Assembly (NCBI GenBank): GCA_964036045.1
Contig: OZ038379.1
Span: 185,528,495 to 185,592,494, forward strand
Length of the DNA: 64,000 bases
DNA from: Eutreptiella sp. 'Long Island Sound 2002'
Taxonomy: Eukaryota; Euglenozoa; Euglenophyceae; Eutreptiales; Eutreptiaceae
Direction: 5' to 3'
The position numbers and the translations under genes are program-made. Position 1 is the first letter of the stretch, and every line of letters begins with the position of its first letter. The notes under the pieces were generated by a model. It was not told the DNA's origin, searched no databases, and was given only the letters and a program-made list of their open reading frames with translations. Positions 40,743-62,911 of the stretch are shown piece after piece.

Positions 40743-43700
40743 CTGCAGAACGGCACAGGGCGATCCTTTAGGGACGGGACCAGACCTTTGCTTAGCGACT
40801 GGGGGGGGGGGGGGTCATTTTGGGGCTGCCTCAGGACTGGCCAAGCCACCCACCCACCCAAGCTGACCCACCCAAGCTGACCCACCCACCCACCCACCCA
40901 CCCAGACCCCCCCCCTGGGGGGGAGTAGGCACGTTGGGCCAAATTGCCCAAAACCAAACTAACCCACCCACCCACAGGCCACGGACCCCCCCCCCCCCAA
41001 GTCCAGTGGGACCACCCTTAAGCAAAGGTCTGGACGGGACAAAAGAAAATTCCGGTTGATGTACGCGTCACCCCACAAATGCCCACGCCGATGGAGAAGG
41101 CAACACGGCATCACTGCACACCGGCGTTTCAAATCCTCATGTCCCTCCTGCTGGCGGTGGTCATCGGTGAAGAGATGACGCAGGGACCGGCAGCCTGCAG
41201 CTTGGTGTACAGAACACGGCCGTTAATCGCCGGCAGTTGCTGGTCAACAACTGGCGGTTGGCGGTCAACGAGTGGTCGACTACCACGGCTCCACCCTCTG
41301 AGGGGCTCACTTGCCCTGGAAACTTGGGGCCCAATTAGTGGGAGAGGCAGGGGGCAGACTTCGTGTGGGGACAATCCCGCGGCAGTACATTTCACGGCGG
41401 GATTCATGGAGGTCACTGAAGAGGCTCGGGGGCATTGCGTGCACCATCTCAAGCGGGAGGGAGACGCTGCCGTGCCTGTGTGGGGGGGGGTGAGTGTGTT
41501 GTGTGTTGTGTGTTGCCTGGTGCTCCAGGCCCCGGCGGGGAGGCTGAGGGGGCCTGCCTCTGAGCCCAGCGGGGGAGTCGCCGGCTTGGACACGCCGCCT
41601 CCACGTCACCCAACGGGCTGCCCCCCGCCCCACGACTGCCATGGCCCATAAGCCCTGCCCTGCACGTGACGGGGGGTGGTCCGCACTCCCTGACTGCTCT
41701 GGGCACCGGTGGTGCTGCTTTGGGCTGGACCTACCACCCACGGCGCTGGGGCGTGGCAGGGGCCCCAGGGCCCTGGGGCTTGCCCGGGCTGTGCGATGCT
41801 ACTGTCCGCGTAAACGGGGGGCCCAGAGGGCACACCACCCGAGTGACCGCTCCTCTCGGGGGAGTACTGGACTCTCTGGTATCCCTCGTACAGTTCTACA
41901 CATAGGTCCAGTTGTTACACGATGGACAACTATTTTGTTTTTCTTGCGCACCCATTCTATTGCATGCCTCGACAATACTCATTCCAACCTCCCCCCCCCC
42001 CCTCTCCTCCCAATTTCACTGTCCTGGGAACGATTTTGTGTGGAGCACGCCGATGGGGGGGGGGGGCTGGGCGAAATGGCCCAAAAGCGGGTCCAACCCC
42101 CCACCAGCAATCCTTCCCTTGGCGTGGTGCTCTGCTGTTGATCCAACGCCCATGGTTCCTTCGTGTTGCACTAGGGTTTGCGCGCCGGTCCGATTGCGCT
42201 GTACGTGTGAACGTGTATTGCGTTACCCGGAACTGGGTCATTCGCAGCAGCGGCAGGTAGCAGTTGGTGCCAGCACTCCTTACCCCCCACCCCCCAATAA
42301 GCAATGGCTTCCCTGGGACGTACGCTCAATTTGGGGGGGGGGGGGGCACGCGACAGATGCCGCTTGGGTGTCGTTTCACATCGGGGCAGTGTGCCCTGCA
42401 GAGCGTCGCATACCCATGGCAATGCCCACGTCGGCGTGCACCAGCGCAGGCCCATCGTTGATGCCGTCGCCCACCATGCCCACCACCCGCCTGGATTTCT
42501 GTTGCTTCTGGATCCACTCAAGCTTCTGCATGGGCTGCATGGCTGCGTGGTACTCCATGATGCCGACCGACTGGGCCAATGCTGATGCGCAGTCCGGAAG
42601 GTCCCCCGTCACAAGGGCCGGCCACACTCCCGCGTCTTGCAGCACTTGAACTGATAGTGGAGGAGGGAGGCATGCGGAGGGTAGGTCGGTAGGTAGGGGT
42701 TGCTCGGGCCTGTACGAGCTAGACGAAGACTGGGCCGGGCACCCGACACCTGGCACGACACGACAGTCAGCAAGAGACAGAAATCAACTGTCGACCAACG
42801 GCGCTATGGAGTAGTGCTGGTCGGACGCCATGATCCACCCTGGGCCCACCAGAATGTCGACCCACTTGGGGGCAGGCGCCCCCGGGCACGAACACAGCAC
42901 TACCGGTCTGTCCACGATGACGTCCTCCTTGAGAAAGCAGATGGACAAGTCACAGACAAGCAAAGTGTACTCAAACGGCCCTCGACCCCTGCAACTCTAA
43001 TGCAGACCGATCACATGAAATACTTCTAGACGTGTCAGCACGAGGCATGCGGAGGGGGCGGGGGGGGTAAAGGGTGAGGGAGTATGCGGGTTGGTGTACG
43101 TACGTCTGCGCCTTTTCGGGAGGGAATCCTCCGCTCGCGGACTGGCGGGTTGGTTGTCCAGCCTTTGGGTTGGGGGTCACGAGGGCGGGTTCAGACCAGC
43201 CGGGGGAAACATTGTGTTCCTTCGCGGGAGTGGGACATTTGTCCCGGTACTCAGAATTGCTGCGTCTGCCCCTGAGCATCCCTGCAATACCGCATCGGCG
43301 TGCTCCACACAAAATCGTTCCCAGGACAGTGAAATTGGGAGGAGAGGGGGGGGGGGAGGTTGGAATGAGTATTGTCGAGGCATGCAATAGAATGGGTGCG
43401 CAAGAAAAACAAAATAGTTGTCCATCGTGTAACAACTGGACCTATGTGTAGAACTGTACGAGGGATACCAGAGAGTCCAGTACTGTGCAATCGGCAAGAG
43501 TCCTGCCTGTGCCATAGACCTCCTGATGCTATGACTGGTGAAGACCTCCTGTTGCTGTGGCTGGTGCAGTAAGCTGCCTGTGTCATACATTTCCTGTTGC
43601 TGTGGCTGGTGCAGTGTGCTGCCTGTGTCATAGACCTCCTGTTGCTGTGGCTGGTGCAGTGTGCTGCCTGTGTCATACATTTCCTGTTGCTGTGGCTGGT

Positions 43701-46700
43701 GCAGTGTGCTGCCTGTGTCATAGACCTCCTGTTGCTGTGGCTGGTGCAGTGTGCTGCCTGTGTCATACATTTCCTGTTGCTGTGGCTGGTGCAGTGTGCT
43801 GCCTGTGTCATAGACCTCCTGTTGCTGTGGCTGGTGCAGTGTGCTGCCTGTGGCATAGACCTCCTGTTGCTGTGGCTGGTGCAGTGTACTGCCTGTGTCA
43901 TAGACCTCCTGTTGCTGTGGCTGGTGCAGTAAGCTGCCTGTGGCATAGACCTCCTGTTGCTGTGGCTGGTGCAGTGTGCTGCCCGTGGCATACATTTCCT
44001 GTTGCTGTGGCTGGTGCAGTGTGCTGCCTGTGTCATACATTTCCTGTTGCTGTGGCTGGTGCAGTGTGCTGCCTGTGGCATAGACCTCCTGTTGCTGTGG
44101 CTGGTGCAGTGTGCTGCCTGTGGCATAGACCTCCTGTTGCTGTGGCTGGTGCAGTGTGCTGCCCGTGGCATACATTTCCTGTTGCTGTGGCTGGTGCAGT
44201 GTGCTGCCTGTGTCATACATTTCCTGTTGCTGTGGCTGGTGCAGTGTGCTGCCTGTGGCATAGACCTCCTGTTGCTGTGGCTGGTGCGGTGTGCTGCCTG
44301 TGGCATAGACCTCCTGTTGCTGTGGCTGGTGCAGTGTGCCATACACGAGGTGCTATGCCTCCACAAACTCTAGACCCCGACTACAGAGCCATGGGAGAGG
44401 CACCCGGCTGACGTTGTCTCCCTCCTTGACTACCCCATGCGTGCACGGCACAGCAGCGGGGCCCCAGAGGCCCTTCCGTTTGCTTCCCTGCCCACCACCC
44501 CGTACCCACCCCCGCAGCACATATCCCCGCCTCGCACTGCACACTTGTCGCTGCGGCGTCTGTCTTGGGGCGGTCGCACAACGCCAACGCGAGTTCCAAG
44601 CGCCCGCCCAGCGCCACGAAGGCGATGGTTTTGGCATCCTTCATCCACTGGTCCCACGGCAACACCCCATCTTTGCGCACACCCTCCGGCAAGGCCACCC
44701 CCAGGCGCTTCATCAGCCCCCAGTTGCCAACCGCAACGGGCGTTTGTTCCACCGTCCCTACGATACCCTGTGACACAAGACAAACGGGGGCCAACGTGTG
44801 GCTGTGTGGATCAGGAACTGGGGCACAGCCGTAGGCTTTGGGCTGAGGCACAAGGGGGCCCGGCAATGGGGTCGCGCGTGGCAGAGGGCAAAGCTGAAGT
44901 ACCTGACGTGGCGGGACTTCCCGGAGCGGAGACCAGCCGTCCAAGTTTCGTGTGTAGAATCGCCAAAACTGCGCGCAGTGCCTTGTCTGACAGGGGCCTC
45001 AACGGTCACCCGTTTTCGTGCGCCTCCTATTGTCCGCCCCCACCTGAGTGTAAGCTCCCCAACCCACTCCTTCGCGAGGGCTGTGCCCTTCTGTTCATGT
45101 CCCGTCAGCACAGTGCAGTGCCATGCATGCGGATGCTGTGGAGGCCAGGGGCGGTGGGAGGGCAGCTTCAGGCCTCCTCCACTTCGTGAACATACATGCC
45201 ATAGGCGCCTTATAGGGACCCAAAATGCAACAGGCAAACAACCGCAGAACACTCAATGCAGTACAGACCTACGAGCTCTTCCAGGCCGCTCTTCTCATGC
45301 TCTGCTCCCATTTCGTGATTGTTGTTTGTTGTTTGTCAACGATGCCAGAACTTCTCCCGGGGCTGACTCCATGACAACTCCGCAGGCTGAGTGGGCCACT
45401 GTCCAACATTTTTGCTGTTTTCTGCGCCCAAGGTACCTTCCCACACGGGGGGCCCCACCCTCAGCTCAGGTTTGTCTTTGGCGGGGACATTCAGTCTATC
45501 AGAACCGACCATTGTTCCCCCCCTCGCTCAGGCAAAGCCCAACAGGCCCCAATGATTGTGGGGGGCACATCAATGGTTCCTTTCCCTGTCCAATGCATAA
45601 CGCCGCCTTACACTTGTGAGTGCGTCTTGTGTGCGGGAACACAAGAATGCAGTGCACTGTTGGACTGAGGCGGTTGGACTGAGGAGCTGAAATCACAGTG
45701 AAGGGGCACACGGTCCCACAGAGTTGCGACCTACGCAAACCTTTTGTGGCTCGAAATCCGAAAATTGCAGTAAAATTCCTTTTCCCAGGTCAAAATGGCG
45801 GTCCCTTTTTCAGCCCCCCCCCCACCCCCCCGCCTCCTAGCCACGGTTGGGAGCTCGGGCCTACCGCCAGGACTTTGGTCCAAATCCCCTATTTTGAAGC
45901 TGCCAGTCAAAAACAAATCCCCCCCACAATGCCCGAGGTGCTTTCTGACAGTCGGGTTGATGTAACAGCATGGCTGGTGATGTGATTTTCTGAAGCTTCT
46001 TTTCTGGTTGTAGGGAATTCATTATGGCAGCGGCAGTGCTGCCCCATTAGGATAGCACCTTCCGTGGGAGGCGCAGCAAATGTCGCAGTGGTGGAGGCCC
46101 ACTTTAATCCACCCGATTTGGAGTCGAGGGGTGAGTACCGTAAAGGCTCATTAGGGGTGTGCTACCGTTGGGCTTTCAGGAGGAAATGGTCAACATTGTC
46201 TGTCCCCAGATCGCAGGGGGGGGGGGGACGTGTCTCTGGTACGTGAGAGTGCGATGGTTGTCCCTCTGCCCACAGGTGCCGCCCCTTCATTGCGCCCTTG
46301 GTGTCCGTGCCTGTGTGGGCATACTTTACCAAAACCATGAAGTTTGGAGGGTGCTCCCCACCGCTGCTATGCTGAATGCAACTCCGCGCCAGGCAGTTCC
46401 GGGTCACCAAATATTACATATCAGCGGTGCACAGCATTCCAGACAGTCCGCCCGTGGAAAAGCAGGGGTGCCTTGGCACTGTGGTCCACCGCCAGGTCCC
46501 TCGTGCGTTTCGGCCCTCGGCCTCTTCCTCCTCCCAAACGTCGTCACCTTCTCCCCACCTTCCCCCAATCCCCTCCCCAACCCCTTCCGTTTCAGCATAC
46601 CTGTCCCACGCACACCTTAATGCCCAGCGCCGGGGGCAAACCATAGCCAGATCCCAGCGCGATCGACTGGTCCGAGAGGTGGCCCTTTTCACTGTGGGCG

Positions 46701-49700
46701 CCAAGGGCATAGGGCACGAGGGCCATCCCGACGGGGTGGCTGGATGTGGCCTCAAGGGCTGCGGCGTAGTGCAGGATGAGGTTGTGGCGCTGCATGGAAG
46801 TGAGAGTCACATGGGCCCCAGGGAACACACTTCAGAACCCGGCGCACAGAAGAGGAGCAGCGAGTGGGGCAGAAGGAGCAGGAGGGGGAGGTGAGACCTA
46901 ATTAAGGTGGGCTAAGCGAAGGTGTAGGTGGTGTCTTTGGTAGACTGATGTTGTTCAACACAGCCACCCACCAAGAGCCACTGGATTGCACCCACTCAAA
47001 CGCACATAACTTTAAAAGGGCGCGGGAACGAAAACGATGCAAATTGGTGTGAGAAACGAAACGCACTGTCGGAGCAAGAAACTACTGCATCGATGCTTTT
47101 CAGTGTGTTGTCTGCACACAGCACGGCATCAAGAAAGTGTTGCTGGTGACCAAGCCAAGGAGCAGGAGCGGGGGGGCATAAAGGTGGAGGAGGTCTGTGG
47201 TTCCACACACAGGGTTGTGTTGTGTGGAGGTGTGCCTGCAGGCGGTATGTGGATGGGTTGGGGTCCCACTACTCACAAGACATTTCACATGCAGTCAGTC
47301 CCAGACCGGGTGCAGTGGGATGTAGACCTCCCACCACAAACACCCAATGCAGGAGCCGTGCAGGTCTGAGGCAGTCTCGAGGCATTCCTTATGGGACCCG
47401 AGTCAACAAATGCCCGTGCCATCCCACAGCCACTGGCCATGTCGCAGCAACGCCAGACCGGACAGCGCCTCTGAGGATCACATGGAAGCGGCTGGTCAGG
47501 GGATCAGGGGGGTTGCCAGCCCCAAGACGTGTTCGGAATGAACATTGGAGAGCGACATCAGAGACAGTTCTGCAACCCGTGCACAGGGTGCGGAAGGTCT
47601 GCCCCCAGCAGACGACACCCGGGTTGGGGTGTGGGTTGTACGTTGTTGGCACTGCTCACTGTGTTGCGGCGCCGCTCCATTGTCGGACCCAGGGGGGCGC
47701 CCCTGCAACCGGCCAAGCGCATGGCTCTCAATCCACCACCTGACAGTCCCCTACCTTTTGCCCTCCTCCGAATCGTGGGTCTCAGACGAGAAGACTTCCA
47801 AAAGCTCTCCGCCACTGGACTGCTCAGAGGGGGGGGGGGCGGCTGGAACTGGTGCGGTGTGCTCCACCCACCATTCCGATCCAAACGACACTGCAAGCTT
47901 CCCGTATGAAGCACACAGACATGCTTGCATCAGCCAAAGGCGGCACCCCCAACGAGGTGGAAACATCCGCCCGCTCTGACCGCACTTTCGCCACCCACTC
48001 CACCGCGTTTGTGCATGCCACCATCGCTTGGGGGATTGCGGGTCTTGCTTGGCTGCGGGTGACCATGGCCCTGTTGCCATTTTGGCGGTACCCCTGTGGG
48101 TTCTCTGCCGCGGCATGGGCAGCATGGCCATCCATCAGGAGGTCAGCTGCGTGCAATGGACTCGGGCGTATGGAGAGGACGATGATGCAGATGACCCAGA
48201 TGGGCGAAATTGAGGAGGAGCAGAAGGAGGAGGGGAGGGGGTGAAGGGTTGGGGTCCGGTCCGACACTTAAGCCACCCCCCGTGTCTGGTGGTGGGGGGG
48301 GGACGACAGGGGGTTGGTATGACACCTGGTTGTGTTGCTGTCTGCAGCTGGCGGTGTCTACTGCCCTCTTGCCACTTACCGCTGCCCTTCCCTTGAACCC
48401 TTTCCCTCCATAGGCTCCCTCCCATAGGCAGCGGTACCCATCAGCCTCTCACCACCTTGTGTCCTCCCTCTCCCTACCCAGCCTATCTATCTATCTATCT
48501 ACCGGCCTATCTATCTACCCGGCTTACCTCCCAACTCACCCTTCCTTTCCCCCTGGTAGATTGTGCCAACGAAGCCCGGACTGTCCCTTTTTCACTGCTC
48601 TGTGTCGGGTCCACACAGAGGAGGGGAACCACCCTCGCCGTTGGCCAGGTGCATCCAAGTGGACACCCCAGACTGGTGGTGGGGGATCCCTCCCCAACGG
48701 CTACTTCTGGACCCCAGGATGTCCACTTGCGGGGCCACGTCTCTGACCGGGGCACATAACAACCTTCCGCCTGTCCGTTCCCGTGTGCAGTCCTCCTTGT
48801 GGCAAGCCCATCATGCCGAGGGCTGCCATCGATGGTTGGAACCTCATGCCCTGCAGTCCACCCGGGTCCACCGCCAATGACCTGTGGCCCGGCCCCCAAT
48901 GACCATTGACAGCGGCGGCATTTCAAAATGATGCCCCCCCGCCCCCCAGTGCCTGGACGAATCCCTGCCCCATCAGCCCCCCCCCCCCCGCCAGCAGGAT
49001 TCACATGCGGATGCCATGGGTGCCCAGGGTGATAAAGAAACAGAATGTGGAGGGGAAGCATCAAGGCCGCGGACCTGGTGTGACCCCACCTCAAAGCAAC
49101 AGGCAAGTTCAACAACATCCCTGCGGGGAGGCCGTGGTTAAGTATTCCCCTAGGTTTCTTCCCCCGAAATCAGAACCTGGCCAAGCACAGCTTTGCTTGG
49201 GAGGCCGAAGGCTCAAACACCTTCGGACACCTTGTGGAAGCCCAGCAAGCCAACCAAATGGGTGAGGCTGCAAGAGCAAGGAATATCTCACCCGCAGACG
49301 CGCTCCGTTGTTTCCCAGCGCACGTCGGAGGAGATAGGCCACAATATGCCAGTGGCCCAACCCGCAAATCCCACCGCAACACCATCTCCGCCCACCACCC
49401 TACGACCGCACCATCCCACCCACCCAACACATCCCCACCCATCACTCTGCAACAGCCCCCAACCTACCAGCCCGGGTGGTGCTCATGCCACATGAGCTGT
49501 CACTCAGTTTCCCTATGATATTCCGAGGCATGGACCCCATGGGCATTCTGCGCATGTTGACCCGTGAGGATCATGGGGGCTCAGGTGTTTGCCAGCTCTG
49601 GAATGGCTGGCGGCAGGTTCCCCACCCAACCTTGGAAGTCCGCACGCTTACTGCGCCTGTGTCACATATGCAACGGGATCCCGATTTGCACCGTACCCGC

Positions 49701-52700
49701 ACCCGCACTCGTCTTACGCAGGGATGTTGTATCTGTCTCACAGGCGGCCCCAGCGTGAGGATTTGAGGAGTGAACGGAGGGTTTTGGCACTGGGAGCAGG
49801 CACACCTGCATCGAATCCAGTGCCTTCCATGCCCCAAAGTCGCTAAGGGGGTGTGGCAACGACTGGGCCCAGTGCCAAGATGACCCGAGATGCGGTGATC
49901 CAGGAGAGCACTCATGCCCATGGCCGTGTCCATGCTCATGCCCACACCCATGTCCATGTCCATGGCCATGCCCATGGCCGTGTCCATGCTCATGCCCATG
50001 GCCGTGTCCATGCCCACACCCATGTCCATTCTCATGCCCATGGCTGTGTCCATGCCCATGTCCATGGCCGTGTCCATTCTCATGCCCATGGTCGTGTCCA
50101 TGCCCACACCCATGTCCATTCTCATGCCCATGGCTGTGTCCATGCCCATGTCCATGACTGTGTCCATTCTCATGCCCATGGTCGTGTCCATGCCCACACC
50201 CATGTCCATTCTCATGTCCATGACTGTGTCCATTCTCATGCCCATGGCCGTGTCCATGCCCACACCCATGTCCATTCCCATGCCCATGGCTGTGTCCATT
50301 CTCATGCCCACACCCATGTCCATTCCCATGTCCATGACTGTGTCCATTCTCATGCCCATGGCCGTGTCCATTCTCATGCCCATGGCTGTGTCCATGCCCA
50401 CACCCATGTCCATGGCCATGCCCATGGCTGTGTCCATTCTCATGCCCATGGCCGTGTCCATTCTCATGCCCACACCCATGTCCATTCCCATGTCCATGAC
50501 TGTGTCCATTCTCATGCCCATGGCCGTGTCCATTCTCATGCCCATGGCTGTGTCCATGCCCACACCCATGTCCATGGCCATGCCCATGGCTGTGTCCATT
50601 CTCATGCCCATGGCCGTGTCCATTCTCATGCCCACACCCATGTCCATTCCCATGCCCAAGGCTGTGTCCATTCTCATGCCCATGGCCATGTCCATGCCCA
50701 CACCCATGTCCATTCTCATGCCCATGGCCATGTCCATGCCCATGGCTGTGCCCATGCTCAGGCTCATGCCCATGGCCGTGTCCATGCCCATGCCCACACC
50801 CATGTCCATTCTCATGTCCATGGCTGTGTCCATTCTCATGCCCATGGCCGTGTCCATTCTCATGCCCATGGCTGTGTCCATGCCCACACCCATGTCCATG
50901 TCCATGCCCGTGCCCACGGCTGTGCCCATGCTCAGGCTCATGCCCATGGTCGTGTCCATGCTCAGGCTCATGCCCATGGTCGTGTCCATGCCCATGGCTG
51001 TGTCCATTCTCATGCCCATGGCTGTGTCCATTCTCATGCCCATGGCTCTGTCCGTTCTCATGCCCATGGCCGTGTCCATGCTCATGCCCACACCCATGTC
51101 CATGGCCATACCCATGGCTGTGCCCATGCTCAGGCTTATGCCCATCACCATGTCCATGATGATGATGATGATGATGATGGCCATGCCCACACGCATGCCC
51201 GTGCTCATGGCTATGGCCGTGGCAGCAGCCTCCCCCTTCGCTGTGATCATCGGCTACATGTGATGACTCGTCAACGTTGGGCCAATTGCTGCCAGGCACC
51301 TGAACGGCACAGAGGTGGTGCTTGGGTCCGGGCTGACATGCTGCTCGTGTCAGGCGCCAGCCCTGTACAAAGAGCTATGCACTCATACCCAGCCCACTGC
51401 ACACCCAGAAGCCCCTCCACACGGTGCTGTGGATCCACTGCCTTGTAGTGCTGCATTGGAACTCCCTTCGTGGACGTAGCGTCTGTCCACGCGTACGTTG
51501 CCCATGCCTGTTACACTGCAGACAGGATCCTGCCCGGAGTAGTAACAATACCCAAACCTGGAGCCAAATACTACCAACGGAGATTATCCAATCCACAACA
51601 CCGCTTCTTGAATGTGTGGGGTGCACCAACGGCGTAGAATGGCAAAGTTTGACAAAAAAAAAAGAGGCTATTGTTAGTGCTCCTATGAGGATGTACTGAA
51701 CAGTGATGCCATTCCCCATTTGTAGCCCTTTTGAGTCCGGATACACCACCAAAACCACCCAATCACCTTTTGAACTCAAAATCGGGGGAGGTGTCCCTAT
51801 TTGCCTGCACCAATCAAATGCATGAAACTGAGAGCACCAACCGGCGACCCAACCCCACCTCTGTGCCCCCCTGCACAGCAACAAAACGTTGCACACACGA
51901 CTGGCCATTTCTTCCCCCCCCCCATCCTGCTCCCATGCTCGTTTTGGATCACTATCCCTCACTTTCCCGGAATTGAGAGGTTGCGTGAATGCCCCCCCTC
52001 CTCCCTCTTGTGCTTGTGGGGGTCGTACCATTGCCCCCCCCCCAGACCCCCCACCCCCCAAACCCTCCTTCCCCTCCTCCCCCTCCAACGCCGCGTGCTG
52101 GCGTACACAGGCCCATCCAGAGGCTCAGCAGCAGCGCAAAGCCACCGTACCTCCTGCAATCTCTCCCCCGGGACCATGTACACATCCGTGACCCGGAAGG
52201 ACCCTTCCGTGAGGGTGCCCGTCTTGTCCAACCCGAGCGTGTTGAGCGCCGCCAGCCGATCCAGGGCTACCCCACCGGATTTGATCAGCACCTGAGCCCT
52301 TGCGGCAGCGGCGATGGCACACGCCGTGGCGACGGGGGTGGCCATGACGATCGAACACGGGCACGCCAGCACCTGAGCATTCGCGGGGCACGCGGGGCAT
52401 GGGACGCCAGCCCTGCGTCACCCACCGTCCGCGACGGCGGGGGGAACCGGCACAGGCCCCGACCAACCGATGACGTCCGGTGCGTGGGGACGTTGTGGAC
52501 ACGGGCACCGCAGGTCGAGACACGGAGGCACGGGCCATTCGGCAGCCGGACTACGGGTGAGCCGTTGGATGGCGTTGAGCGCGGCGCCGCTCTGCCCCCG
52601 TCAACGCCATCCACTGCCTCAGCGGTATTCCGCCTGCCGATGGACTGGACGAGGCTCTCTCTTGGTCTCGACCGCGGAGGAGGCGTTTGGGGGGGCCACA

Positions 52701-55700
52701 CACCACAACCGCCGCGTGCACACCCCCACAACCGGGAACAGACCCTCCACATCGAGAGGGAATGCGTCCCCGGGGCACATGTCTTCGCGTGGCCCCGCCC
52801 CAACTGCACGAGGCACGGCCCCTTTGTCCGGTGCCGAGTTTGACCACAAAACCGCTCCCCTACCCCCGCCCGCCAGCGCCGGAGGCACGCCCCCACAAAC
52901 AAAACACACAGCGCTCGCAAATGCCTCACATTCAGTCATTCCCATGGCGTTGGGGGCGGCGGAGGCGGGGAAGTGGGGGGGGAGAAGGGGCGATGCGATC
53001 CGCAATTGGTTTCGCATGTTGTCGCACTGTTGTCCCCTGATTTTCATTGGGTGTGCCTTTTGGTGAGTACCGTGCGCCAAAAAGGGGGGGGGGGAAGGGG
53101 GTCAAGAGCATTGGGGGCGTGAGGGCAGGGCACGTTGGTCTGCAGAGCCCACAAAGACCGGGACCGTTGCAGGGGAAGTCACGTGGTCTTTGGGCACATT
53201 CGCGCGGGACCGGGTCCGGTACATCGCCCAGGCACACAGGCCAACACCACGGCCGACACGAGGCAACGCCCGGGGCCGGGCACATGAAGCGGGGCATCAT
53301 ACGAGAATCAGCAACGCCGTGTGCAGCGACGCCCCAAACGGTTGGCTCGTCAGTAGCGGCGGGATGAAGAGCACCGCCACCGCGAACACGAGCAGCGCCG
53401 GGGTGTAGAACCGGGCGAACCGGTCCACAAACACGCCGATGGACGACGGCTTGGCCTGTGCCTCCTCCACGATGGCCTACGCAGCGTGGCGGTCGATGGG
53501 TGGGCAGCGCCCGAGGGGCGGAGGAGTGGCAAGGTACGGGGGAGGGGGGTCTGCCACACAGGATCCGTAACAAGGAGGTAAGAGGGGGGGGGTTTTGGCA
53601 AGAAGCCATGGTCTTGTGTTCTCGTCTGCAGCTGGCGGCGCCCACTGGCAGATCGCCATTCGCTGCCCTTCCCTTCCCTTTCCTTCAGTGAAGGTCCACC
53701 AAGCCGCTGTTTTGGTCCGCCGTTTCTGTTTCTCCATGGTGGCGGGTTGCGTCGACCAAAACAAGAGGGGGGGGGGGGGGGCAGTGTGTCAGGCCTCTGT
53801 ACCCCTGCCCCCCCTCAGGGGCTGCAGTCGCCCCCGGCCGCGCCCAAGTGCCCTCGAACCGTTCTGGAATCGCCGGGAGTTGCCGCCCCTCCCCCACAGC
53901 CCCCCCCCCCAAACAACCGCCAGTAACCGCTTTGAATTAGGTCCTGAGGCCTCCTACACGAGCCTCCGTCCCATCCAAGCGCACGCCGCGGGGCGCAGAG
54001 CGAGAGGGAGACCCCCCCCCAGGGCTGGGTCACCCTCTTCCCCCTCTTTCCGGGACTCCAGCCCCCACCACCCACGGGAATTCGGGGGGGGGGGGGTGGG
54101 ATAGGGGGATGGGTCGGTTATAGTCCCAGCCACGGGCGAACAGCCTCAGTGGCTCCGGCCTCATGTCCCCTGGGGGGGCAGTGGCTGCGGGCACCCCCGC
54201 TGGCTGTACAGCTGGCCGCAGCATCACCGCCCCCCCCCCCCACCCATGGGCACTTCCCGCGGTTGGGGCAGGGAGCAGGGAAGGGGGCGCGCGAGCCTGG
54301 TGGATGTTTTTGGCTCCATCTCGGCCACGCTCACTGCAGCGGCGCAAGCAGACGGCACACCGGGTGTACCCCCTCCTCCCCGGGACCGCAAGCTGCAGGG
54401 GGCTGCAGGGCGGCTTCGAGCTGGGAAGGATCCAGGTGCCTCCACACCCCTCCGCGAACAGGGGCAGCAGGGTATTGCAGGCAGGATCTGGAGCAGCAGG
54501 GTGCTGCAGGGCGTGCTGTGCTGCAGGCAGAGGCTGCTGCTCTGGATCAAGGGTGTCAGGGACAGGGTGGTCCACCTCTCCCCCCGGTGCGGCGAAGCCC
54601 CTCCCCTCCCTCCCTCCGTGGGCGGGCAGGGCAGGCTCAGGTACGCAGCAATGCGGCAAGGGGTGGCAGGGCAGCACGTGGGGCACACCGTCAGCGGCGC
54701 CCCTCGCAGCACAGGGGTGCAGCAGCCCGCATGCCGGCCCGGGGGGAGGGGGGGGGCTCTTGAGCCTAGGCTTCACTCGGCAGGTGCAGCCATCGGGAGG
54801 GGGGGACACCCAACCCCCCACAGCCGGACGGGAGCGCACAGCCCGAGCTCTCTCCTCGGAAGATCCCACGTAGGATGGAGGCTCAGGTCCTTCCTCCTAC
54901 GGTGTACGGCCATTCTAATACATCCCTGGGTCAAGGTCGGGGTTACCTGGCCTAGACCCTCCTGAACAAACATGAGGTTCATATGAGGCTATTGCTGAGT
55001 GACCCCCAGAGGGGGGGGGGGGGGGCTGGCCAGCCCCGGCCAACCCACCCACCACCCACCCACATCCGAAAAGTCTTCCTCAGGGGGGGGGGATGAAAAT
55101 CATTAAAGAGGCCGGAAACATGACGCCGATTGTAGGTGCACAACCTCTTTTTTGGCCTCTGACCCCCCCCCCCTTCCCTGCTGTGGGATGCGAATGTCAA
55201 GTGCGAACCTGCAAACCCCACAAGGCAAAAGGCCGCAGAGCAACACAGCCTGAACACGAAGCTCTTCGGTGACATGGTCATAGAAGCCTCAACAGAGGTA
55301 CCCAGAAGAGGCAGTACTGTGGGCTGGTTCGGATGGCTCTAACTAAACTTGCCTAAACAATGTGTGATACATCGACCGAGACATTCGTTCATCTCTCTTT
55401 CTTTTTTTTTGCTCAACTTTCGAAGTGTGCGACTGCTGCCGACTGGCTAGGAGTGCCCCCCCCTTTGCAATGTCCCCCCTTTTGTCAGGCCGGTTTTTAC
55501 GGACGGCTCGTCCAAGAAGTTTGATGGGGTTGGCAAACTCGGGGGATATGGAGTATATAGTCAAGATGGGCAGTCCATTGCACAACATATGCCTATTGGG
55601 ATGAAACAAACCAACAACGCAGCAGAACTTATGGCGGCGCTTCGCGCTCTGCGATTGCACACACATGGAAAGGTCACCATATGTTCTGACTCTGAGTACG

Positions 55701-58700
55701 TCCTGCTTGGAGTCCGTGGGGCAGCCAAGCGCTGGAAAGTCAAAAGGTGGGTGGGCTCATGCAGACCAGTCAGCAAAGTTCCCATTTGGGAAGAAGTGCT
55801 GCTGGAACTGGACCGAAATGAACGTGAGCTTGTTTGGATCAAAGTCCCCTCACACGTCAGAGTGGAGGGCAACAATGAGGCTGACCGCCTAGCATCTGTC
55901 GGACTCCATTGACATGCACTATACCCCTTCAATCCCACGCCACACAAAAAAGAAGCCACACAATTTTGCACTCCCCCACCGCCACTCAAATGTTCCAAGT
56001 TTGAAGTCAACACTCCCCCCGCTCCTGATGTTTCCAAAACAATTGATTTTCCTGTGGCCTCGCTGCCAGCCATTCCACTGCACTCAGCGAGAGCCGAGTC
56101 TATCCTGCAGTCAGTCCAGCTCGAGGTTCTTTCGGATCCTGACACGGATAACACAGATGCGAGTTGCACCGATTCCGGGCTCGACTCAGGCGCTTCAGAC
56201 ACGGCGTCAACCGTTTCATGGGCCTGCAGCTCCAACGGTTTCAGCACGGATGTGAGCGACTCTCGTTTGCGCTAGGCACCTTCCCATTTGCATCTTCCAT
56301 GATTGTATGTTAGACTACCATTTACTATTGGTTTTCCTCCTGATATATTTTACACACAGACACACCAAAGGGCACAGGTGACGCCGCCCACACCAAGCAC
56401 ACAAAGCACAACGCAGGGGAACAGAAGGTCAACCTCAAAGGCCAAAGGAGTGCCGAGGGGGACAATCTATGCCGCCTCTCGTAAGGTTTCACATGACCGT
56501 TGTCCGGCTCTAAAGCATGGATGGCCTTAGGTCTTATAATATGATGTGTACATAAACAAGGAAGCACAACAACATTGTACTTAGTGGATGACAGCTTCGC
56601 TGTGGCGCACACAAACTATTGGACTAAAGGCTGAAAGTGCCTATGGCGGGGGCATTCAGTCAATTGAAGCCGACCAATGCTCTCCCCCACGGGGGGGGGG
56701 GGGTCACGAAGTGACATTTCCCTCTCCTGGGGGTGGATTGCACCACAAATCTGTACCATAGTATCACAGTGTAAATCAGCTTCGGCGCCTGGTAAAAATT
56801 CTATTGCCTTTGGCAGTGCACCTCGAAGAGAGGCTGATAGTCAGCCAATCAGTCCCTTAGCCAGGCCAGCAGTCAGTTAGACAGAAACACACAGTTTGGG
56901 TTTTTTGTCAGTGGCAGCCACGGCCCCAAGTACCCCCCCCCCCCCGCTTGTAATAGCTGCGCAAAAGTACCAAATTAATACGGTCCCTACGCCGACTGTA
57001 GCTTAGACAAGGGCGTGGCTTGTGCACAACACATACAACTACCGACACACACGTGGGTGAGTGCATGGTATGAGTGCACCTTAACCTCCGCCCATGTTCC
57101 CAAAGGCATGTAAACACAAGAAAGGGTTTGAAACATGAAACTTCAGGTTCACATTCATGTTCCTACAAGCAATGAGGCAAGAGAAGCCTGCAAATGTTCG
57201 GCTTGGAAACCCTTCTTGCGATCATACACCATGTGGAACAACTCCACATGCTCACTACTTGAAGATGCCTTTGAAGATGCCTTTGCCCGAGGTTTAGGGG
57301 CTGGTTTGGGCTCACGCAAATTCAAGTTCTTGGGAATGAAATTGCCTTGCATGTGGTCTCTTGTACAGTACACTCACAACCCTATGTAACTAGCAAATTC
57401 GTCACCAAACCCATGTCGTGGGTGGCTGCACTACATTTGGTACCAAATTAAAATTAGGTCCCAAATTAACACGGTCCCTACGCCTACTGTAGCTTGGACA
57501 AGGGAGTGGATCGCGATCCATCGCAGCAATCCACCTTCCGTCAAGGGATCCGGTCCTCCTTTGTGTGGCAAGTGCACCGGGTGTTCTGGCGACAACGGGG
57601 GTTGTCACGGCAACACCGTATGCCCCCGAAGGCGGAGAATCACGGCGGCGGCGCGGTACGCCCTCCGGCCAATGCCACGGCCGTGGCCGATACTTCCCGC
57701 CCTCGAAATGGGCAGAGGGCCAAACCACGCGGAACAGATGGCGTGCGTTGGCGGTGCCAAAGCGACGCGGTTCACCTGCACTATGCCCCAGTAGTGCCCG
57801 CGAAAAAGGGACCCAGAATTCGGTGGACTACAGGGACAGAGGCTCCGAGGCAGTGGCACAGCAGCCGTGGGAGGGTGGGCCATCCACTGTTTGGAGGGCC
57901 TCCGCGGTTTGGGTCGTTTGGGGGCTGTGTACACACCCGCAGCGTACCCGGGGGGGGGGGGGGGGCAGCACCGTCGTCCGGTGCAGCGACAAGCACAAAG
58001 TGGGGCCTGTCCGGCTGGCGGACAAACCGTGTGGACGGAGCTTGTGGAGGACGGACCTTCTCTGGCACATCCATTCCCTCCTAAAGAAGAGTGGCGGCGA
58101 GGGGGGGGGGGGTGTCTACAAAAACCGGTTGGTCACCGTGTCGTACACCCGGTGTCCAGCGCCGTGTCTCTTTGGGTGACCTGTGTGTTGGTTGAGGTCT
58201 TTGGGGTGGGAGACGATGGGGAAGGCGTACCCTTTTGTGGGTGATGGGGTGGACGGTTTGCCCCACGGGTCACGATGGCAGCCCCAACGTCCGTGACTGT
58301 GAAGTTTGGAGGGGGCTCTCCAGGGGCCACACATGATTGGTCTGCTGCAGCTCCAAGCATTTGGCCCGTGGTGTCCTCGTGAAATGTGCGAGACCAGGCT
58401 GGTCCCCTACCAAATCTGTGCCTGGGCTGAGGTCTGTGGACCCCGGAGCCCGGACCCGGAGGGGGAGGAGGGCGAGACCTAATGAAGGTGAGCAGGGGGG
58501 GGGGGGGAGGGGGGGGTCCTGGAATCAACCCTTCAAACCGAATGAAGGAGGTGTGCCACTGAATAACGGGCTCCAGTGGCCGACCAAAACCAAAAGGCAA
58601 GTGCAGCCTGTCGCCACAATGCGCCAAAGACTCCGTTACCGCCAGGTCAGGCACAGGCAGATTGTCGACATATCTGTTGATACACAATACACACACTCAC

Positions 58701-61700
58701 AGCGAGCAGCGCATCACGCCGATCACCTCCCGGTGTATAGGTTGAGGGCATCAGGTGCCCAGCTCTGGAGGGAAGGTTGCTCCGACAGGGGGCCTCCAAG
58801 CCCCCCGGTGCCCTATCCTCCCTGACTTCCGGGAGCAGTGGCCCATGGCGATCTCTGTACGGGTGCTGGGGCAAGATGAAGACCGGGTGACCGGTGCGCG
58901 GGACATTCCGCCACCCCCTCAGACCCTCAGCCGTCAGGTGGAGCGGTGGCGCTGCTTACCTCGCACTCCCCGCAGATACGGGGGCGCTGTGGTGCACCGA
59001 TACGGCGTCCCTGATAGACCTCCCTCGTGTACTGAGTGGGCCTGGGCATGGGCAGTGGCTGCCCTGTGGCCGGGCGTGGCTCCGGGTCCACGAGGTGGCC
59101 GCGGTTGTGCTCGTGGTCGTGTGCGACACCGGCGGTGATGTGGTGGCCGCGCCAGCGCCCTGTGGCTTGCCTTTCCTCAACGCAATTGGAAATGGAAGCA
59201 AACAACAAACCGCAAATGTGCGAACGGCAGCTCGATCCCCCACCCCCCACCCACCCACCCACCCCCCGGACCCCCTGCTGTACATCTGAATGCAGGTCCC
59301 TCGCAAACCGGTCGAGCACAATCGGCCCCGTCCTGTCCCCCTTTGTCATCCGAGTGCACCTCTCCACAACCATGTTAGCACATGGTGCTGGGGTGTACGT
59401 GAGAAGGCTGTCGTAAATAATGGTGCGGCACGGGGTGTCGCGCGCCCAGCCAAGGCCGCGTGGTCGTATTTCATCTCACGTCTCGCGCCTGCTCTCGTCG
59501 GGTTGTCCAGGCGAAGGTGCCCCAGCCCTGATCCGAACCGACATCCTCCACCTTTCCTCGTATACTCCCCTCAGTGCCTCCCCTCAGTGCCTCCCCTCAG
59601 TGCCTCCTATCATAGCCTCCCCTTGTAGCTTGCCCCTCATAACCTGCCCTGGTTGCCTGCCCTATTACCCCCCCGTACAGCCTCGTCTACGGGCCTCGCA
59701 TCAGAGCCTCCACTTGCATCTTCCCCCTAATGACCTCCCCTCATCGCCTCCTCTAACACAACACAACACACCACAACACACCACAACACAACGCAACACA
59801 GCGATTTACAGCATCACACAGCACAGCACAACACGATACACCACACCACACCATAACACAACACAGCACAACAGCCCACACCACAACGCTGCAACACGAC
59901 ACAGCACCAGATGACACGACACACCATCGCAATGCGTCATAGAGTCATGAGGCGCGGAATAGTTCCACACCTGAATGCTGGCAACTGTGGATTCACTGGC
60001 CGTGCCCGTCGTCCTCACTTCCATGAACCCGTTTTGAACGATTGTACCGGCAGTCACCGAGTCCCCTGGGCCCTTACTCAAAGGAGCAGCCTCGCCAGTC
60101 ACTGCGCTCTCATCCACCGCTGCCGAGCCACTGACTACTTCGGCGTCCAATGGTATTTGATCCCCAGCACGGACTCCCAGCAGCGTGCCAACAGCCACAT
60201 CCTATTGAGAGGGGCACGGGGTCTGGCGGATCCAACACCCAACCCACACCCACATACAGCCCCCCCAACCCCTGCTACAAAGCCTTGTCTTGAACGTAAA
60301 GATCGATGACTACCATGAGAACTAAGGGCGGTGTGGTATGGTGCGTGCGGTGTGGTGTCATTGCTGTTCGGCTGTTCAGGCGTTGAGTTGTGTTCTGATG
60401 CGATGCTGCACTTTCACGTAATCTCGAATAAGTCATGACCAGGACCATGACAATCATGAACACATCAATACCTCCACATTGACCACCTCCCCCTTCCTTC
60501 CAGGCTCCGCCAGAATCGCCACTTGCACGTGGCTGACATCGATTCCTCGGATCTCCCTTCGGACCTTCTCAAAGCAGACCTTCTCCAATATGCCTGAAAG
60601 TAAAGGAGCATGCAGTGCTGTGTCCTGTGCTGCTGGTGTGTGCTGAGGTGCTGGGTGGCCTGTTCGGAGAAGGAGGGGGTTAATGTGGAAGAAGGGGGCA
60701 TGATGCCGGGAGGAAAAGAGGCGTGCCCACACAAAGAGACAGAACGTGGAGAAGTGGAGAAGTGGAGGGAGTGGGACAGGCAGGCACAACAGGCAGGCAA
60801 CGAGGGAGGGAGACAGGGGCAGCGAGGGGGGGAGGGACGGTGCGAGGGAGAAAGGACAAAGAGGGAGGCGCAGCAAGGGAGAGGGGAGAGAGGAGGCAGG
60901 AAGGAGGGAGGGGGATAGTGATGGGAAAGAGGGCTAGGAAGAGACGAGGGAGGGAGGGAGGGAGGGGCAGTGAGGGAGTTGCAATTGGAGCAGAGCATGA
61001 TCTACGGTGCCCAAACCGCCTGCCCAGGGCCCGTTTATGTGGCTGCGAGTTAGGCTCTGTCCCTTACCAACGGCTCCTGTTGCCACTCCTCATATCGCAG
61101 ACCGGGATTTCCCACTGTTTTCTGCGGTGCGATCAATCGAAGATGCGAAATGGGAGGGGACCCAAGGACCCCAATGCTGCCTGGAGGTGGGGCCGAAGGA
61201 CCTTACACAGGGATGCCGGTGTCGCGCAAGAAACAGGAGGGGACCCAAGGACCCCTGAGGATGATATGCATAGCCTGCAGGCACAGAGTGTCCCATGCTG
61301 CATACTGGTCCTTCGGTCCCGTCCCCTTTCACATCTTGTGCAGCACCCTGCACTGCACTGCACCGGGGCGGTCCTTAACAAGGAGAAAAAAAAGAAGTGT
61401 TCCTGTACCCTGGTTTCCCAAAAGTGCCGACGGGCACACCATGTGTTGGCGGTTGGCGGTTGGCGGTTGGCGGTTGGCGGTTGGCGGTTCATGGCAGTTG
61501 GTGGCGGTTGATGGTGGTTGGCGGCAGTTGGTGGTTGGGGATTGGCGGTTGATGGCGGTTAACAGTGGTTGGCGGTTGGCGGTTGATGGTCCCTTGGGGC
61601 GGTCCTTAAGGGCGGTCCTTAACAAAAAAAAAAAATCTCGGTCCCAAAGGACCGCCCTGCACTGCACTGCCCTGCCCTTTGGTGACCTGCCACAAGTATA

Positions 61701-62911
61701 AAAACCCTCAGGGTGCCTCTCTCATGCATTTGTGTGGGTTGCAGCAGGGTACCGACGTGGGCCCAGCTCCCCTCTGCACAAGGCAAAACTCCAGGGTAGT
61801 AGCTGAGCGCCACCGTGGCCTTGGCTCCCCTGTCCTGCAGTCACGTTCTCTTTTGGTGCGGGAGCACCGTGCTCCCGGGCCGAGTCCTCAACGGGTGTCA
61901 GCAGGGTATCATAACGTCCCAGCTCCCTGTTTGGCCCCAACATCGAGTCTCCGCCGGGTGGCAGGATGGCACCGAGCACAGGCCCCCCTCGCTGGTCCTG
62001 TGACGTGCCGGCAGGGCGTGCCCCAGGGCAACCCCCCTGGAATGGAAACCGCCATGCCTGAAGTCTCTTTGGACGGACGGGTCTCACCCATGAGCCAGAG
62101 AATGGACCCGCTGCAGGATCAACGTATAGCGTTTGCGGTGCCCTTGGACCTGGACAGCGTGCCAGGAGGGGCATTCTCAGGCGCGCCCCCAGATTTTCTC
62201 ACTTTGGGTGGAGTTAAAACAGGACTCCCTCCTTGTGTCCACGTGGGTGTTGGCCCATCGTACATGGGCTTGTGGTGGCGCTCCTCCTCCTCCTCATGTG
62301 CTGCTGTGCCCTGCAATGCCCTGCTCTGAGTTGCCCTGCAATGCACTGCAATGCAATGCCCTGCCCTGCCCTGCAATGCCCAGCCCTGCCCCACTGCACT
62401 GCAATGCCCGGCCCTGCCCTGCCCTGTACTGCCCTGCCCTGCTCTGCCCTGTACTGGACTGCCGTGCCCGTGCCCTGCAATGCAGGTCCTTGGGTCCCCT
62501 TGGGCCCCCTCCCATTTCGCATCTTGCACACTGTATTACCTTGGCACCTACTTAGATACCGGCCAAACAATGAAGGAGGCAGGCGGGGAGGGAGGGCACC
62601 TGCTACCCCAAACAGAAGCACCACCAGTGTGGCATCGAACATGTCTCCCAAACCGACAGCGCTGCAAACCGCCACCACTACCAAGAAGTTAATGTCAAGG
62701 CGTAGCCTGCGGCTCCGAACGGCCTTAAGGACGATGGGCGGTAGGCCATACAGGAGGAACGCCGCCATGGCAGACCACGCCACTTGATAATGTGAATCCC
62801 GGAAGGCAAACCACGTGTAAACGGCGGCCACGAAAAAGACCACCTGGACACCCATGTAGATCACGAAGCCCGGGGGCAGAAGGAGACCGAAATCCTCTTT
62901 TTCAGCATTGT
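40420..62911 (-). CDS. P1B-type heavy-metal ATPase (Zn/Cd/Pb-like) with giant His-rich insert; 5' end missing
   Basis: Ten exons (minus strand): 62911-62600, 60593-60472, 60201-59971, 53476-53303, 52372-52151, 51299-49806, 46789-46616, 44767-44545, 42650-42414, 40742-40420. All introns are GT-AG and all phases agree, giving 1169 complete codons and a TGA stop at 40420-40422. In order come membrane helices MA, MB, M1 and M2; actuator domain with TGE; M3; M4 with CPCSIVMATP; DKTGT; a His-rich insert; the HP motif; GxGxxG-type loop; TGD; GDGIND; and M5/M6. By family knowledge such pumps export divalent metals across a membrane using ATP. LDRLAALN after LIKSGG and the M5 Lys (LKAV) and M6 Asp (SDM) favour the Zn/Cd/Pb subgroup. 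The first visible exon starts with two bases completing a codon, so at least one upstream exon, perhaps with a metal-binding HMA domain, is not seen. Confidence 0.95.
40743..42413. other. ATPase intron 9
   Basis: Contents: a CCCA-rich tract (40850-40990), a GGCGGTT-like patch at 41222-41290, and the left arm of a large inverted repeat at 41863-42055. No gene. Confidence 0.7.
41863..42055 (+). repeat. Inverted-repeat arm, left of ATPase exon 9
   Basis: This 193-bp arm (begins agtactggactctctgg) is the reverse complement of 43293-43484 with essentially no differences except the length of a C run. The spacer is about 1.24 kb and contains exon 9. Confidence 0.95.
42414..42650 (-). CDS. ATPase exon 9: TGD and GDGxND motifs
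   Basis: The acceptor is ccactatcag, the donor ATGG before GTATGC. It encodes VLQDAGVWPALVTGDLPDCA, then the helix to GMVGDGINDGPALVHADVG. The usual NDAPAL is NDGPAL here. The 237-nt exon has phase 1 at both ends. Confidence 0.95.
43293..43484 (-). repeat. Inverted-repeat arm, right of ATPase exon 9
   Basis: Reverse complement of 41863-42055. No target-site duplication is seen at the outer ends of the pair. Confidence 0.95.
43540..44340. repeat. 45-bp minisatellite in ATPase intron 8
   Basis: About 18 units of 45 bp built on gctgtggctggtgcagtg. Two sub-types differ at catacatttcc or catagacctcc. From about 43930 a four-unit, 180-bp higher-order period is visible; the marker gctgcccgtggcatacat is at 43978 and 44158. 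All frames are open because 45 is divisible by three, so the repetitive proteins predicted here are not evidence of a gene. Confidence 0.95.
44545..44767 (-). CDS. ATPase exon 8: rest of the nucleotide-binding domain
   Basis: The acceptor is cttgtgtcacag, the donor GACAA before GTGTGC (phase 1). It encodes GIVGTVEQTPVAVGNWGLMK, the typical end of the ATP-binding Gly-rich loop. AKTIAFVALGGRLELALALC then leads back into the P domain. Confidence 0.94.
44768..46615. other. ATPase intron 7
   Basis: No named repeat. The plus-strand frame 44798-45619 has no domain signature. Confidence 0.6.
46616..46789 (-). CDS. ATPase exon 7: HP motif of the nucleotide-binding domain
   Basis: The acceptor is cttccatgcag, the donor ATTAAG before GTGTGC; the exon is 58 codons, phase 0 at both ends. 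HYAAALEATSSHPVGMAL carries the His-Pro pair that contacts ATP in P1B pumps, followed by ALGSGYGLPPALGIK. Confidence 0.95.
46790..49805. other. ATPase intron 6
   Basis: A 3-kb intron with a CTAT tetranucleotide run (48481-48520), poly-G/C tracts and no recognisable gene. Confidence 0.6.
49806..51299 (-). CDS. ATPase exon 6: 498-codon His-rich insert
   Basis: The acceptor is gtgccgttcag, the donor GATGCAG before GTGTGC; 1494 nt, phase 0 at both ends. It starts VPGSNWPNVDESSHVADDHS, then GGGCCHGHSHEHGH and a run of eight His. About 420 residues of HGHGHENGHSHG-type repeats follow, with regular GCGHG, EPEHG and HDHG variants. It ends with non-repetitive SDFGAWKALDSMQ. Roughly four residues in ten are His, and Cys recurs about every 25-30 residues. 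Such sequences bind Zn, Cd, Ni or Cu and occur in metal transporters, usually at termini; here the position is between DKTGT and the HP motif. A buffering or sensing role is inferred. Confidence 0.85.
51300..52150. other. ATPase intron 5
   Basis: No named repeat; C-rich near the exon 5 side (52036-52090). Confidence 0.6.
52151..52372 (-). CDS. ATPase exon 5: CPC metal-site helix and phosphorylation site
   Basis: The acceptor is gaatgctcag, the donor GCAGGAG before GTACGG; 74 codons, phase 0. VLACPCSIVMATPVA is the M4 transport-site helix. LIKSGGVALDRLAAL leads to LDKTGTLTEGSF, whose Asp is phosphorylated in the cycle. Confidence 0.97.
52373..53302. other. ATPase intron 4
   Basis: 930 bp, no repeat or gene recognised. 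Confidence 0.6.
53303..53476 (-). CDS. ATPase exon 4: actuator-to-M3 segment
   Basis: The acceptor is ctgcgtag, the donor GATTCTC before GTATGA; 58 codons, phase 0. AIVEEAQAKPSSIGVFVDRF and ARFYTPALLVFAVAVLFIPP are the standard P1B linker and M3, and LHTALLIL begins M4. Confidence 0.96.
55451..55912 (+). CDS. RNase H (type 1-like) domain, antisense in ATPase intron 3
   Basis: From an acceptor-like tttgtcag at 55488 the frame reads VFTDGSSKKFDGVGKLGGYG, then QTNNAAELMAALRAL, TICSDSEYVLLGV, and SHVRVEGNNEADRLASVG before TGA. These supply the Asp, Glu, Asp and His/Asp positions of an RNase H1 active site, an enzyme that cuts RNA in RNA-DNA hybrids. The frame is open from 55451, and the first ATG (55589) lies after the first catalytic Asp, so a start in this exon would give a dead protein. 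It is either an exon of an interleaved gene or a retroelement fragment; the K-rich VKRWVGSCRPVSKVPIWEE spacer favours a cellular-type enzyme. Confidence 0.75.
   Translation, partial: ECPPLCNVPPFVRPVFTDGSSKKFDGVGKLGGYGVYSQDGQSIAQHMPIGMKQTNNAAELMAALRALRLHTHGKVTICSDSEYVLLGVRGAAKRWKVKRWVGSCRPVSKVPIWEEVLLELDRNERELVWIKVPSHVRVEGNNEADRLASVGLH
55913..56275 (+). pseudogene. In-frame continuation after the RNase H stop
   Basis: After the TGA at 55910-55912 the same frame stays open for 120 codons to a TAG at 56275. The sequence looks coding: FNPTPHKKEATQFCTPPPPL, then an acidic Ser/Thr-rich tail with DPDTDNTDASCTDSGLDSG. A single stop separates the two parts. That may mean a disabling mutation, stop-codon readthrough or unrelated sequence. 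Confidence 0.4.
56276..56962. other. Non-coding part of ATPase intron 3
   Basis: No gene recognised; poly-G at 56691-56703 and poly-C at 56933-56945. Confidence 0.4.
56963..57507. repeat. Element with direct terminal repeats, copy 2
   Basis: The left 260 bp match 14815-15074 and the right 120 bp match 15400-15530, including the shared ATTAATACGGTCCCTACGCC-type ends. The middle part is different from copy 1. On the minus strand it has an open patch rich in Lys/Pro/Ser (NLREPKPAPKPRAKASSKAS). Confidence 0.6.
59755..59890. repeat. ACAAC/ACACC pentamer microsatellite
   Basis: Irregular acaac, acacc and acagc pentamers near the 5' end of ATPase intron 3. Confidence 0.85.
59971..60201 (-). CDS. 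ATPase exon 3: actuator domain with TGE
   Basis: The acceptor is cctctcaatag, the donor AGCATTCAG before GTGTGG; 77 codons, phase 0. DVAVGTLLGVRAGDQIPLDA, SAAVDESAVTGEAAPLSKGP and GTIVQNGFMEVRTTGTA match the A domain; TGE drives dephosphorylation. Confidence 0.97.
60472..60593 (-). CDS. ATPase exon 2: link from M2 to the actuator domain
   Basis: The acceptor is ttactttcag and the donor GTGGAG is followed by GTATTG. The two leading bases complete a Gly codon with exon 1. ILEKVCFEKVRREIRGIDVS and VQVAILAEP correspond to the usual post-M2 helix and first A-domain strand. Confidence 0.92.
61364..61659. mobile_element. hAT-like MITE family B, copy 2
   Basis: The left end is CGGGGCGGTCCTTAAC (one change from the expected CAGGG) and the complement of the right end is CAGGGCGGTCCTTTGG. 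The 8-bp duplication CACTGCAC lies at 61356-61363 and 61660-61667, within a CACTG-rich setting. The interior array of GGCGGTT units (61445-61590) and the GGGCGGTCCTTAACAAAAAA end match copy 1 at 21.5 kb. Confidence 0.85.
62295..62480. repeat. CCCTG/CAATGC short tandem array
   Basis: Irregular units of ccctg, gccctgcaat and tgcaatgc. Simple sequence without coding content. Confidence 0.8.
62600..62911 (-). CDS. ATPase exon 1 of those visible: helices MA, MB, M1, M2
   Basis: The acceptor is cccgttcttttcag, the donor GTAGCAG before GTGCCC. It begins with two bases of a codon, then NAEKEDFGLLLPPG. The helices are FVIYMGVQVVFFVAAVYTWF, AWSAMAAFLLYGLPPIVLKA, INFLVVVAVCSAVGLGD and TLVVLLFGVAG. MRSRRLRLDIN-like basic residues precede M1, as in the family. 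Confidence 0.96.

Follow-up and report, generated by a model that had tools for sequence, protein, structure and literature searches.

A P1B-type ATPase gene occupies the minus strand of the window, the 64,000-nucleotide stretch of the Eutreptiella sp. genome (2.28 Gb) analysed here, which is located on a 193.5-Mb contig (C2). The gene extends from beyond the right edge of the window down to position 40420, and nine ATPase exons were located inside the window (Table 1). Approximately 0.4 kb outside the right end, an N-terminal HMA-type exon is found, which is 49–53% identical to the N-terminal regions of the related proteins C10, P0002 and P0007; the matching region of C10 corresponds to PF00403. 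The joined core of the gene, taken without the His-rich block that separates exons 5 and 7, scores 375.9 bits with the Cd-family model TIGR01512 (cut-off 313.5), and the position originally given for the block, between the DKTGT and HP motifs of a P1B ATPase, was confirmed. A copper-type P1B pump was ruled out, since the joined core remains below the cut-off of the Cu-family model TIGR01511 (299.6 vs 397). Judged by its sequence, the gene is a P1B-2 (Cd/Zn-type) ATPase, and export of zinc and cadmium is the predicted substrate assignment. P0002, whose C-terminus is missing, reaches 235.6 on TIGR01512, which is below the cut-off. A long Cys/His-rich C-terminal tail is not present in the gene of the window, the protein ending with ..LLAPLKTSKAVIDRHYDYNKLIES directly before the stop codon.

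Table 1. Exons (exon 6 proposed) and repeat features of the P1B ATPase gene (positions are those of the window).
Feature	Position	Strand	Remarks
ATPase exon, first membrane helices	62600..62911	-	..LDINFLVVV..; borders approximate
ATPase exon, start of actuator domain	60472..60593	-	borders approximate
ATPase exon, actuator domain with TGE	59971..60201	-	PF00122
ATPase exon, membrane helix preceding CPC	53303..53476	-	
ATPase exon 5, CPC motif and DKTGT	52151..52372	-	CPC motif VLACPCS; phosphorylation motif DKTGTLT
Proposed exon 6, His-rich block	49806..51299	-	498 codons; phase 0/0; 176 His, 160 Gly and 18 Cys in 498 residues
Non-repeat N flank of block	51222..51299	-	VPGSNWPNVDESSHVADDHSEGGGCC
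Repeat array of block	49914..51221	-	HG/HE/HN/HS/CG units in 6-base steps; Tandem Repeats Finder
Non-repeat C flank of block	49806..49913	-	ECSPGSPHLGSSWHWAQSLPHPLSDFGAWKALDSMQ
ATPase exon 7, HP motif	46601..46789	-	ALEATSSHP, with HP motif SSHP
ATPase exon N2, remainder of nucleotide-binding domain	44545..44767	-	
Control, open 45-bp minisatellite in a different intron of the pump gene	43542..44339	-	17.7 copies
ATPase exon, TGD and GDGIND	42414..42650	-	PF00702
Last ATPase exon, C-terminal membrane helices	40420..40742	-	short tail, stop

For the block, an uninterrupted 1494-nt exon with in-phase joins had been predicted, and its coordinates proved to be exact, giving 498 codons without any stop. 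Read on the minus strand, the block runs from V-P-G-S to D-S-M-Q and is part of a longer open frame covering 51374–49665. Exon 5 ends with CAGGAG/GTACGG (52151), the block has an acceptor ..GTTCAG/ (51299) and a donor ATGCAG/GTGTGC (49806), and the next exon begins after ..ATGCAG/CGC (46789); all four joins around the block are in phase 0 and the splice sites conform to the consensus. The donor GTGTGC is identical to that of exon N2 of the same gene. The pattern GTRYG occurs at 0.5% of positions in the sampled introns of the gene, and among the four phase-0 GT sites downstream of the array in the gene of the window it is fitted by the block donor only. The distance between DKTGT and the HP motif, counted by hand, is 41 residues without the block and 539 residues with it. 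There is no in-frame ATG ahead of the array, the first Met being codon 522 of 570, so that the block, if translated from an AUG, must be spliced in; for the same reason a stand-alone protein nested in the intron was ruled out. No transcript of the gene was found among the 120 matches listed in the protein search, where the sole near-identical match, P0066 (92% over 16% of the query), was derived from a contig as a reading frame and spans the first exons only.

A second, inverted and complete-looking pump gene (copy B) is positioned to the right of the window on the same contig (L009–L012), head to head with the copy in the window (copy A). The first exon found of copy B lies at about C2:185602026 (+), and this copy contains all nine exon pieces. 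Its block is likewise open, with 2,172 nt, 724 codons, 260 His, 22 Cys and the same splice sites, and the array thus differs in length by 678 nt between the two copies with the frame kept. The four exons adjoining the block have no differences in 807 nt, whereas 106 of 4,305 aligned positions (2.5%; gaps set aside) differ in eight sampled intron stretches. Since these exons are identical while the introns have diverged, the pump seems to be under selection, and a dead gene was ruled out on the same grounds. Taken together, the nine exon pieces span 2,025 nt with 23 mismatches and a single gapped place, 13 of the affected codons being synonymous and 8 nonsynonymous; the hinge exon differs at 11 of 237 nt (6 synonymous and 3 nonsynonymous codons), and the first membrane exon has 8 mismatches together with small frame-keeping gaps. 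In the latter (62600–62911), copy A reads RSRRLRLDINF and copy B RSLRRYAFDINF, the small gaps jointly preserving the frame.

An RNase H domain (PF00075, 84.2 bits) is present at 55451–55912 on the plus strand, within a long intron of the pump gene and opposite to it. The stretch 54012–57509, which contains this domain, is absent from the corresponding place of copy B, and this suggests that a retroelement was inserted after the duplication.

The block itself did not follow the neighbouring exons. When its ends were compared between the copies (96 nt on the C side and, on the N side, 120 nt whose final 42 nt are His-rich; a 6-nt length difference at the array end was left out of the count), 5 of 216 nt were found to differ, with 3 synonymous and 2 nonsynonymous changes, which corresponds to the intron rate of 2.5% and is unlike the adjoining exons. 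Codon-position tests within the arrays were contradictory. Among the one-step variants of copy A, synonymous changes were in excess for the 18-base (24 of 60; 28% expected), 12-base (26 of 50; 26%) and 24-base words (22 of 70; 28%), whereas copy B showed no such excess (8 of 45, 10 of 41 and 9 of 53 for the 18-, 12- and 24-base words, with about 25% expected for each). Nine aligned 126-nt units of copy B contain one synonymous and two nonsynonymous variable sites. These comparisons argue against a strong constraint on the block sequence and would fit either an unconstrained exon or an intron.

The length of the open frame was discarded as evidence for an exon, because a second frame through the block and the array of another intron are open too. 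This second frame, on the same strand, is interrupted by a single stop in copy A and is free of stops in copy B, and since the array moves in six-base steps, long open frames come cheap. The control minisatellite at 43542–44339, which sits in an open frame of 391 codons, is a caution against taking open arrays for exons. This array has fewer copies in copy B, with several frames open, and its translation gives weak Pfam matches (for example PF09764 with 28.0 bits at a cut-off of 27), which are probably due to chance.

The original prediction had proposed a search for the same insertion point in other proteins, and ligand-rich inserts were indeed found at this junction in C10 and P0002. C10, an intronless paralog from the same genome, was detected by searching the genome with P0002, an apparent Euglena transcript; it forms one uninterrupted frame of 1,101 residues (L044 118–3423, minus strand) with HMA, E1-E2 ATPase and hydrolase domains. 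Between its DKTNT and STHP motifs, C10 carries an insert of the form ..DKTNTLTEGHFRVTDVYIVG-[139 aa: 64 H, 29 D, 5 C]-..YAAALEYKSTHP. At this point P0002 (eukprot EG_transcript_2232, in which EG presumably stands for Euglena gracilis) has an insert of 319 residues that includes 48 Cys and 23 CC pairs. A third protein, P0001, which by eye corresponds to locus C7 of this genome wherever the latter can be read, has GCACC and 22 extra residues at the junction. In the intron-bearing paralogs C4 and C24 the interruption at this place contains no His exon; after the intron, a few codons before the HP region, short stretches were recognised by eye (HSHGACDC in C4 and HCGEGQCDC in C24, whose exon start is approximate). 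In both the C10 and the C7 (P0001) paralogs the phosphorylation motif is DKTNT and not DKTGT.

Alignment to the gene of the window gave +141 extra residues for C10, +22 for P0001 and +315 for P0002 at the His junction, with no value above 0 for these proteins at the other compared junctions, including the one occupied by the minisatellite 43542–44339; of the eight junctions, C10 covers all, P0002 seven (not the last) and P0001 six (not the first two). In the 37 other alignment rows there are at most +10 residues at any junction. The spacing between DKTGT and HP was obtained for 240 proteins (239 database matches listed and C10), of which 30 were not measurable by the pattern used; among the matches listed, 203 of 210 measurable proteins have a spacing of 34–41 residues and 7 a longer one. 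Three of the latter are euglenid-type proteins (63, 182 and 356), the other four being P0051, which is Cys-rich, and P0083, P0087 and P0202, whose longer spacers are without four or more Cys and His. It is mainly because the extra residues of three relatives fall at the His junction only, among those compared, that the block is believed to be an exon, and it is credible as such since the relatives' inserts at this junction are ligand-rich. The feature of the block that is not due to chance is, on this comparison, its position and not its openness. We infer that the block is most likely spliced into the mature mRNA.

It is unlikely, although to be taken seriously, that the block is instead an intronic minisatellite that is never spliced in, kept open by its six-base step, with exon 5 joined directly to exon 7. 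Skipping the block would yield the canonical spacing of 41 residues, and the divergence of the block ends at the intron rate, the second open minisatellite in another intron of the gene and the intron without a His exon in C4 and C24 would all agree with such an arrangement. However, a mere minisatellite would leave aside that the in-frame inserts of the relatives occur at this junction and at no other comparable one, that consensus phase-0 splice sites were retained in copy B, and that the array is enriched in the same ligands, His and Cys, as the inserts of the relatives.

In the evolutionary tree (44 rows), a clade supported at 100/99 unites seven rows: the gene of the window, C4, C24, C10, C7/P0001 and two Euglena-type proteins. 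Within it, the grouping of C4 and C24 with the gene of the window is weakly supported (86/42), and P0007, the other Euglena-type protein, extends only as far as DKTGTLT and is uninformative with respect to the insert. Three different ligand-rich repeats (HG/C, HD and DCC) are found in the clade at a single site, and close kin have just a short motif there, namely C7 beside C10, and C4 and C24 near the gene of the window. The simplest reading of this distribution would be that a short ancestral Cys/His stretch was expanded separately in different lineages.

A structure was predicted with AlphaFold2 (77 sequences) for the relative P0002, and not for the gene of the window. The model has a mean pLDDT of 67.4 and a pTM of 0.60, with 575 of 961 residues at 70 or above, and the pLDDT is below 50 for residues 475–771. 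The insert leaves the fold after the strand 452–463 and re-enters it at the helix 776–799, just ahead of the HP motif (804–805). Comparison of the model with the PDB returned P1B ATPases as the first 17 matches (ATP7B, CopA, ZntA, a Cd pump and HMA4), ZntA being represented by 4umw at rank 7 and 4umv at rank 9, with modest TM-scores of 0.26–0.43 when normalised by query length. The disorder between the strand and the helix preceding HP suggests that the insert is, as predicted by this model, a flexible loop hanging from the nucleotide-binding domain. The closeness to the ATP site that was proposed originally does not follow from this model.

Most likely, the block would be a translated exon forming a disordered His/Cys tether on the nucleotide-binding domain and acting as a metal buffer and donor for the Zn/Cd pump, a reading that we hold with slightly better than even confidence. 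The His and Cys residues of the tether would bind zinc or cadmium, and the tether would keep ions in reserve beside the pump and pass them to the cytosolic membrane entry, thereby raising the local supply. As the protein ends in a short C-terminal tail, the reservoir would have been relocated to the catalytic loop, and since this loop belongs to the domain moving during ATP use, the metal load on the tether may also change the turnover of the pump. The buffer and donor role was proposed on the model of the C-terminal di-Cys extension of plant HMA4, which is described as a zinc chelator and donor binding several zinc ions (PMC6255694). According to the same study, the di-Cys motifs of HMA4 matter in vivo, while its His-stretch contributes little by comparison (PMC6255694), and by analogy this would be a warning against a His-based role of the block. 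In a broader and more tentative proposal, which we rate somewhat below even, the loop from the phosphorylated Asp to HP would have become, in euglenid-type Zn/Cd pumps, a dedicated and rapidly rebuilt metal store. Three chemistries (His-Gly/Cys, His-Asp and di-Cys) would have arisen at a single insertion site, with up to 724 residues, and each pump would bear its own reservoir on the moving nucleotide-binding domain, with the metal load coupled to catalysis.

A passenger role, in which the loop tolerates low-complexity expansion and the insert is produced without serving any specific function, appears improbable. It would readily account for arrays 678 nt apart in length between recent copies, for block ends and copy B units in which no clear constraint at the protein level is seen, and for the disorder predicted in the relative's model, but it would not account for three different repeats that are all rich in metal ligands and stand in a metal pump, nor for the lack of inserts at the remaining junctions compared in these proteins. 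Slighter still is the probability of a metal sensor or autoinhibitor, in which metal would fold the tether onto the nucleotide-binding domain and gate ATP use with no storage; a tether placed after the phosphorylation site and before the HP motif could affect catalysis from there, but no conserved structured motif was seen in it, and the length and order of the ligands vary between copies and relatives, a variability more in keeping with a buffer than with a switch.

In the usual textbook picture, P1B pumps bear their metal-binding regions at the termini. The original interpretation is supported in part, and its statement that no family is known with such a domain in the catalytic loop has to be restricted with regard to short inserts. 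In literature listings on this type of pump, its insert and metals in Euglena, covered as titles and abstract openings and mainly outside subscription journals, no paper on a His- or Cys-rich insert in this loop was found. A short Cys/His insert is nevertheless present at the same junction in Lachnospiraceae-type Cd ATPases, which account for 20 of 120 listed proteins, P0051 included, with four of the 20 named Lachnospiraceae; their spacing is 51, in comparison with 36 in the other 100 listed proteins. The site itself therefore has a precedent. The insert of this group (CSCDKCGEFCGCEH in P0051 and its kin) resembles the block in being Cys/His-rich; unlike the block, it comprises about 15 extra residues, is non-repetitive and belongs to proteins placed far off on the tree.

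With the P1B-2 Zn/Cd ATPases (TIGR01512; ZntA, PDB 4umv/4umw) the gene of the window shares CPC, DKTGT, HP, TGD and GDGIND, but their spacer between DKTGT and HP is usually short, while that of the gene of the window reaches up to 539 residues. Plant HMA2 and HMA4 likewise have a long Cys/His-rich region on a P1B-2 pump; there it is a C-terminal extension, whereas here it would lie inside the catalytic loop of a pump with a short C-terminal tail. The coral-type P1B-2 proteins (P0165 from Oculina patagonica, P0133 and P0149), which are among the nearest non-euglenid rows, have Cys-rich extensions as judged by eye, but these are N-terminal and the DKTGT–HP spacer is normal. HGH-type repeats are also found in the His-rich loops between membrane helices of ZIP and CDF zinc transporters, which are unrelated families and whose loops are not part of an ATPase engine. 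What seems to be new here is a P1B-2 pump with a metal-ligand domain inside the catalytic loop, the block of the gene of the window being its proposed exon. The clade seems to have metal ligands of three chemistries at a single point within its ATP-using engine. Since such an insert can be deleted while the termini are left intact, a direct test of whether it stores, delivers or regulates is possible, and the insert would show that a long disordered chain can occupy the catalytic loop of a P-type ATPase without breaking the enzyme. Euglena gracilis is studied for its heavy-metal tolerance, and a proteomic study of this species lists, among the proteins increased by Cd and Pb, a cadmium/zinc-transporting ATPase (PMC7023027).

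A simple satellite was rejected as an explanation of the block. Of 18 other loci in the genome matching it, the one that was read (L015) is a large 12-bp satellite of the TCCCCATGGATG type, and matches similar to it occur on C5, C8–C13, C15, C19, C21, C22, C26 and small contigs. The 12-bp satellite arrays contain very long open frames and match in searches with His-Gly queries.
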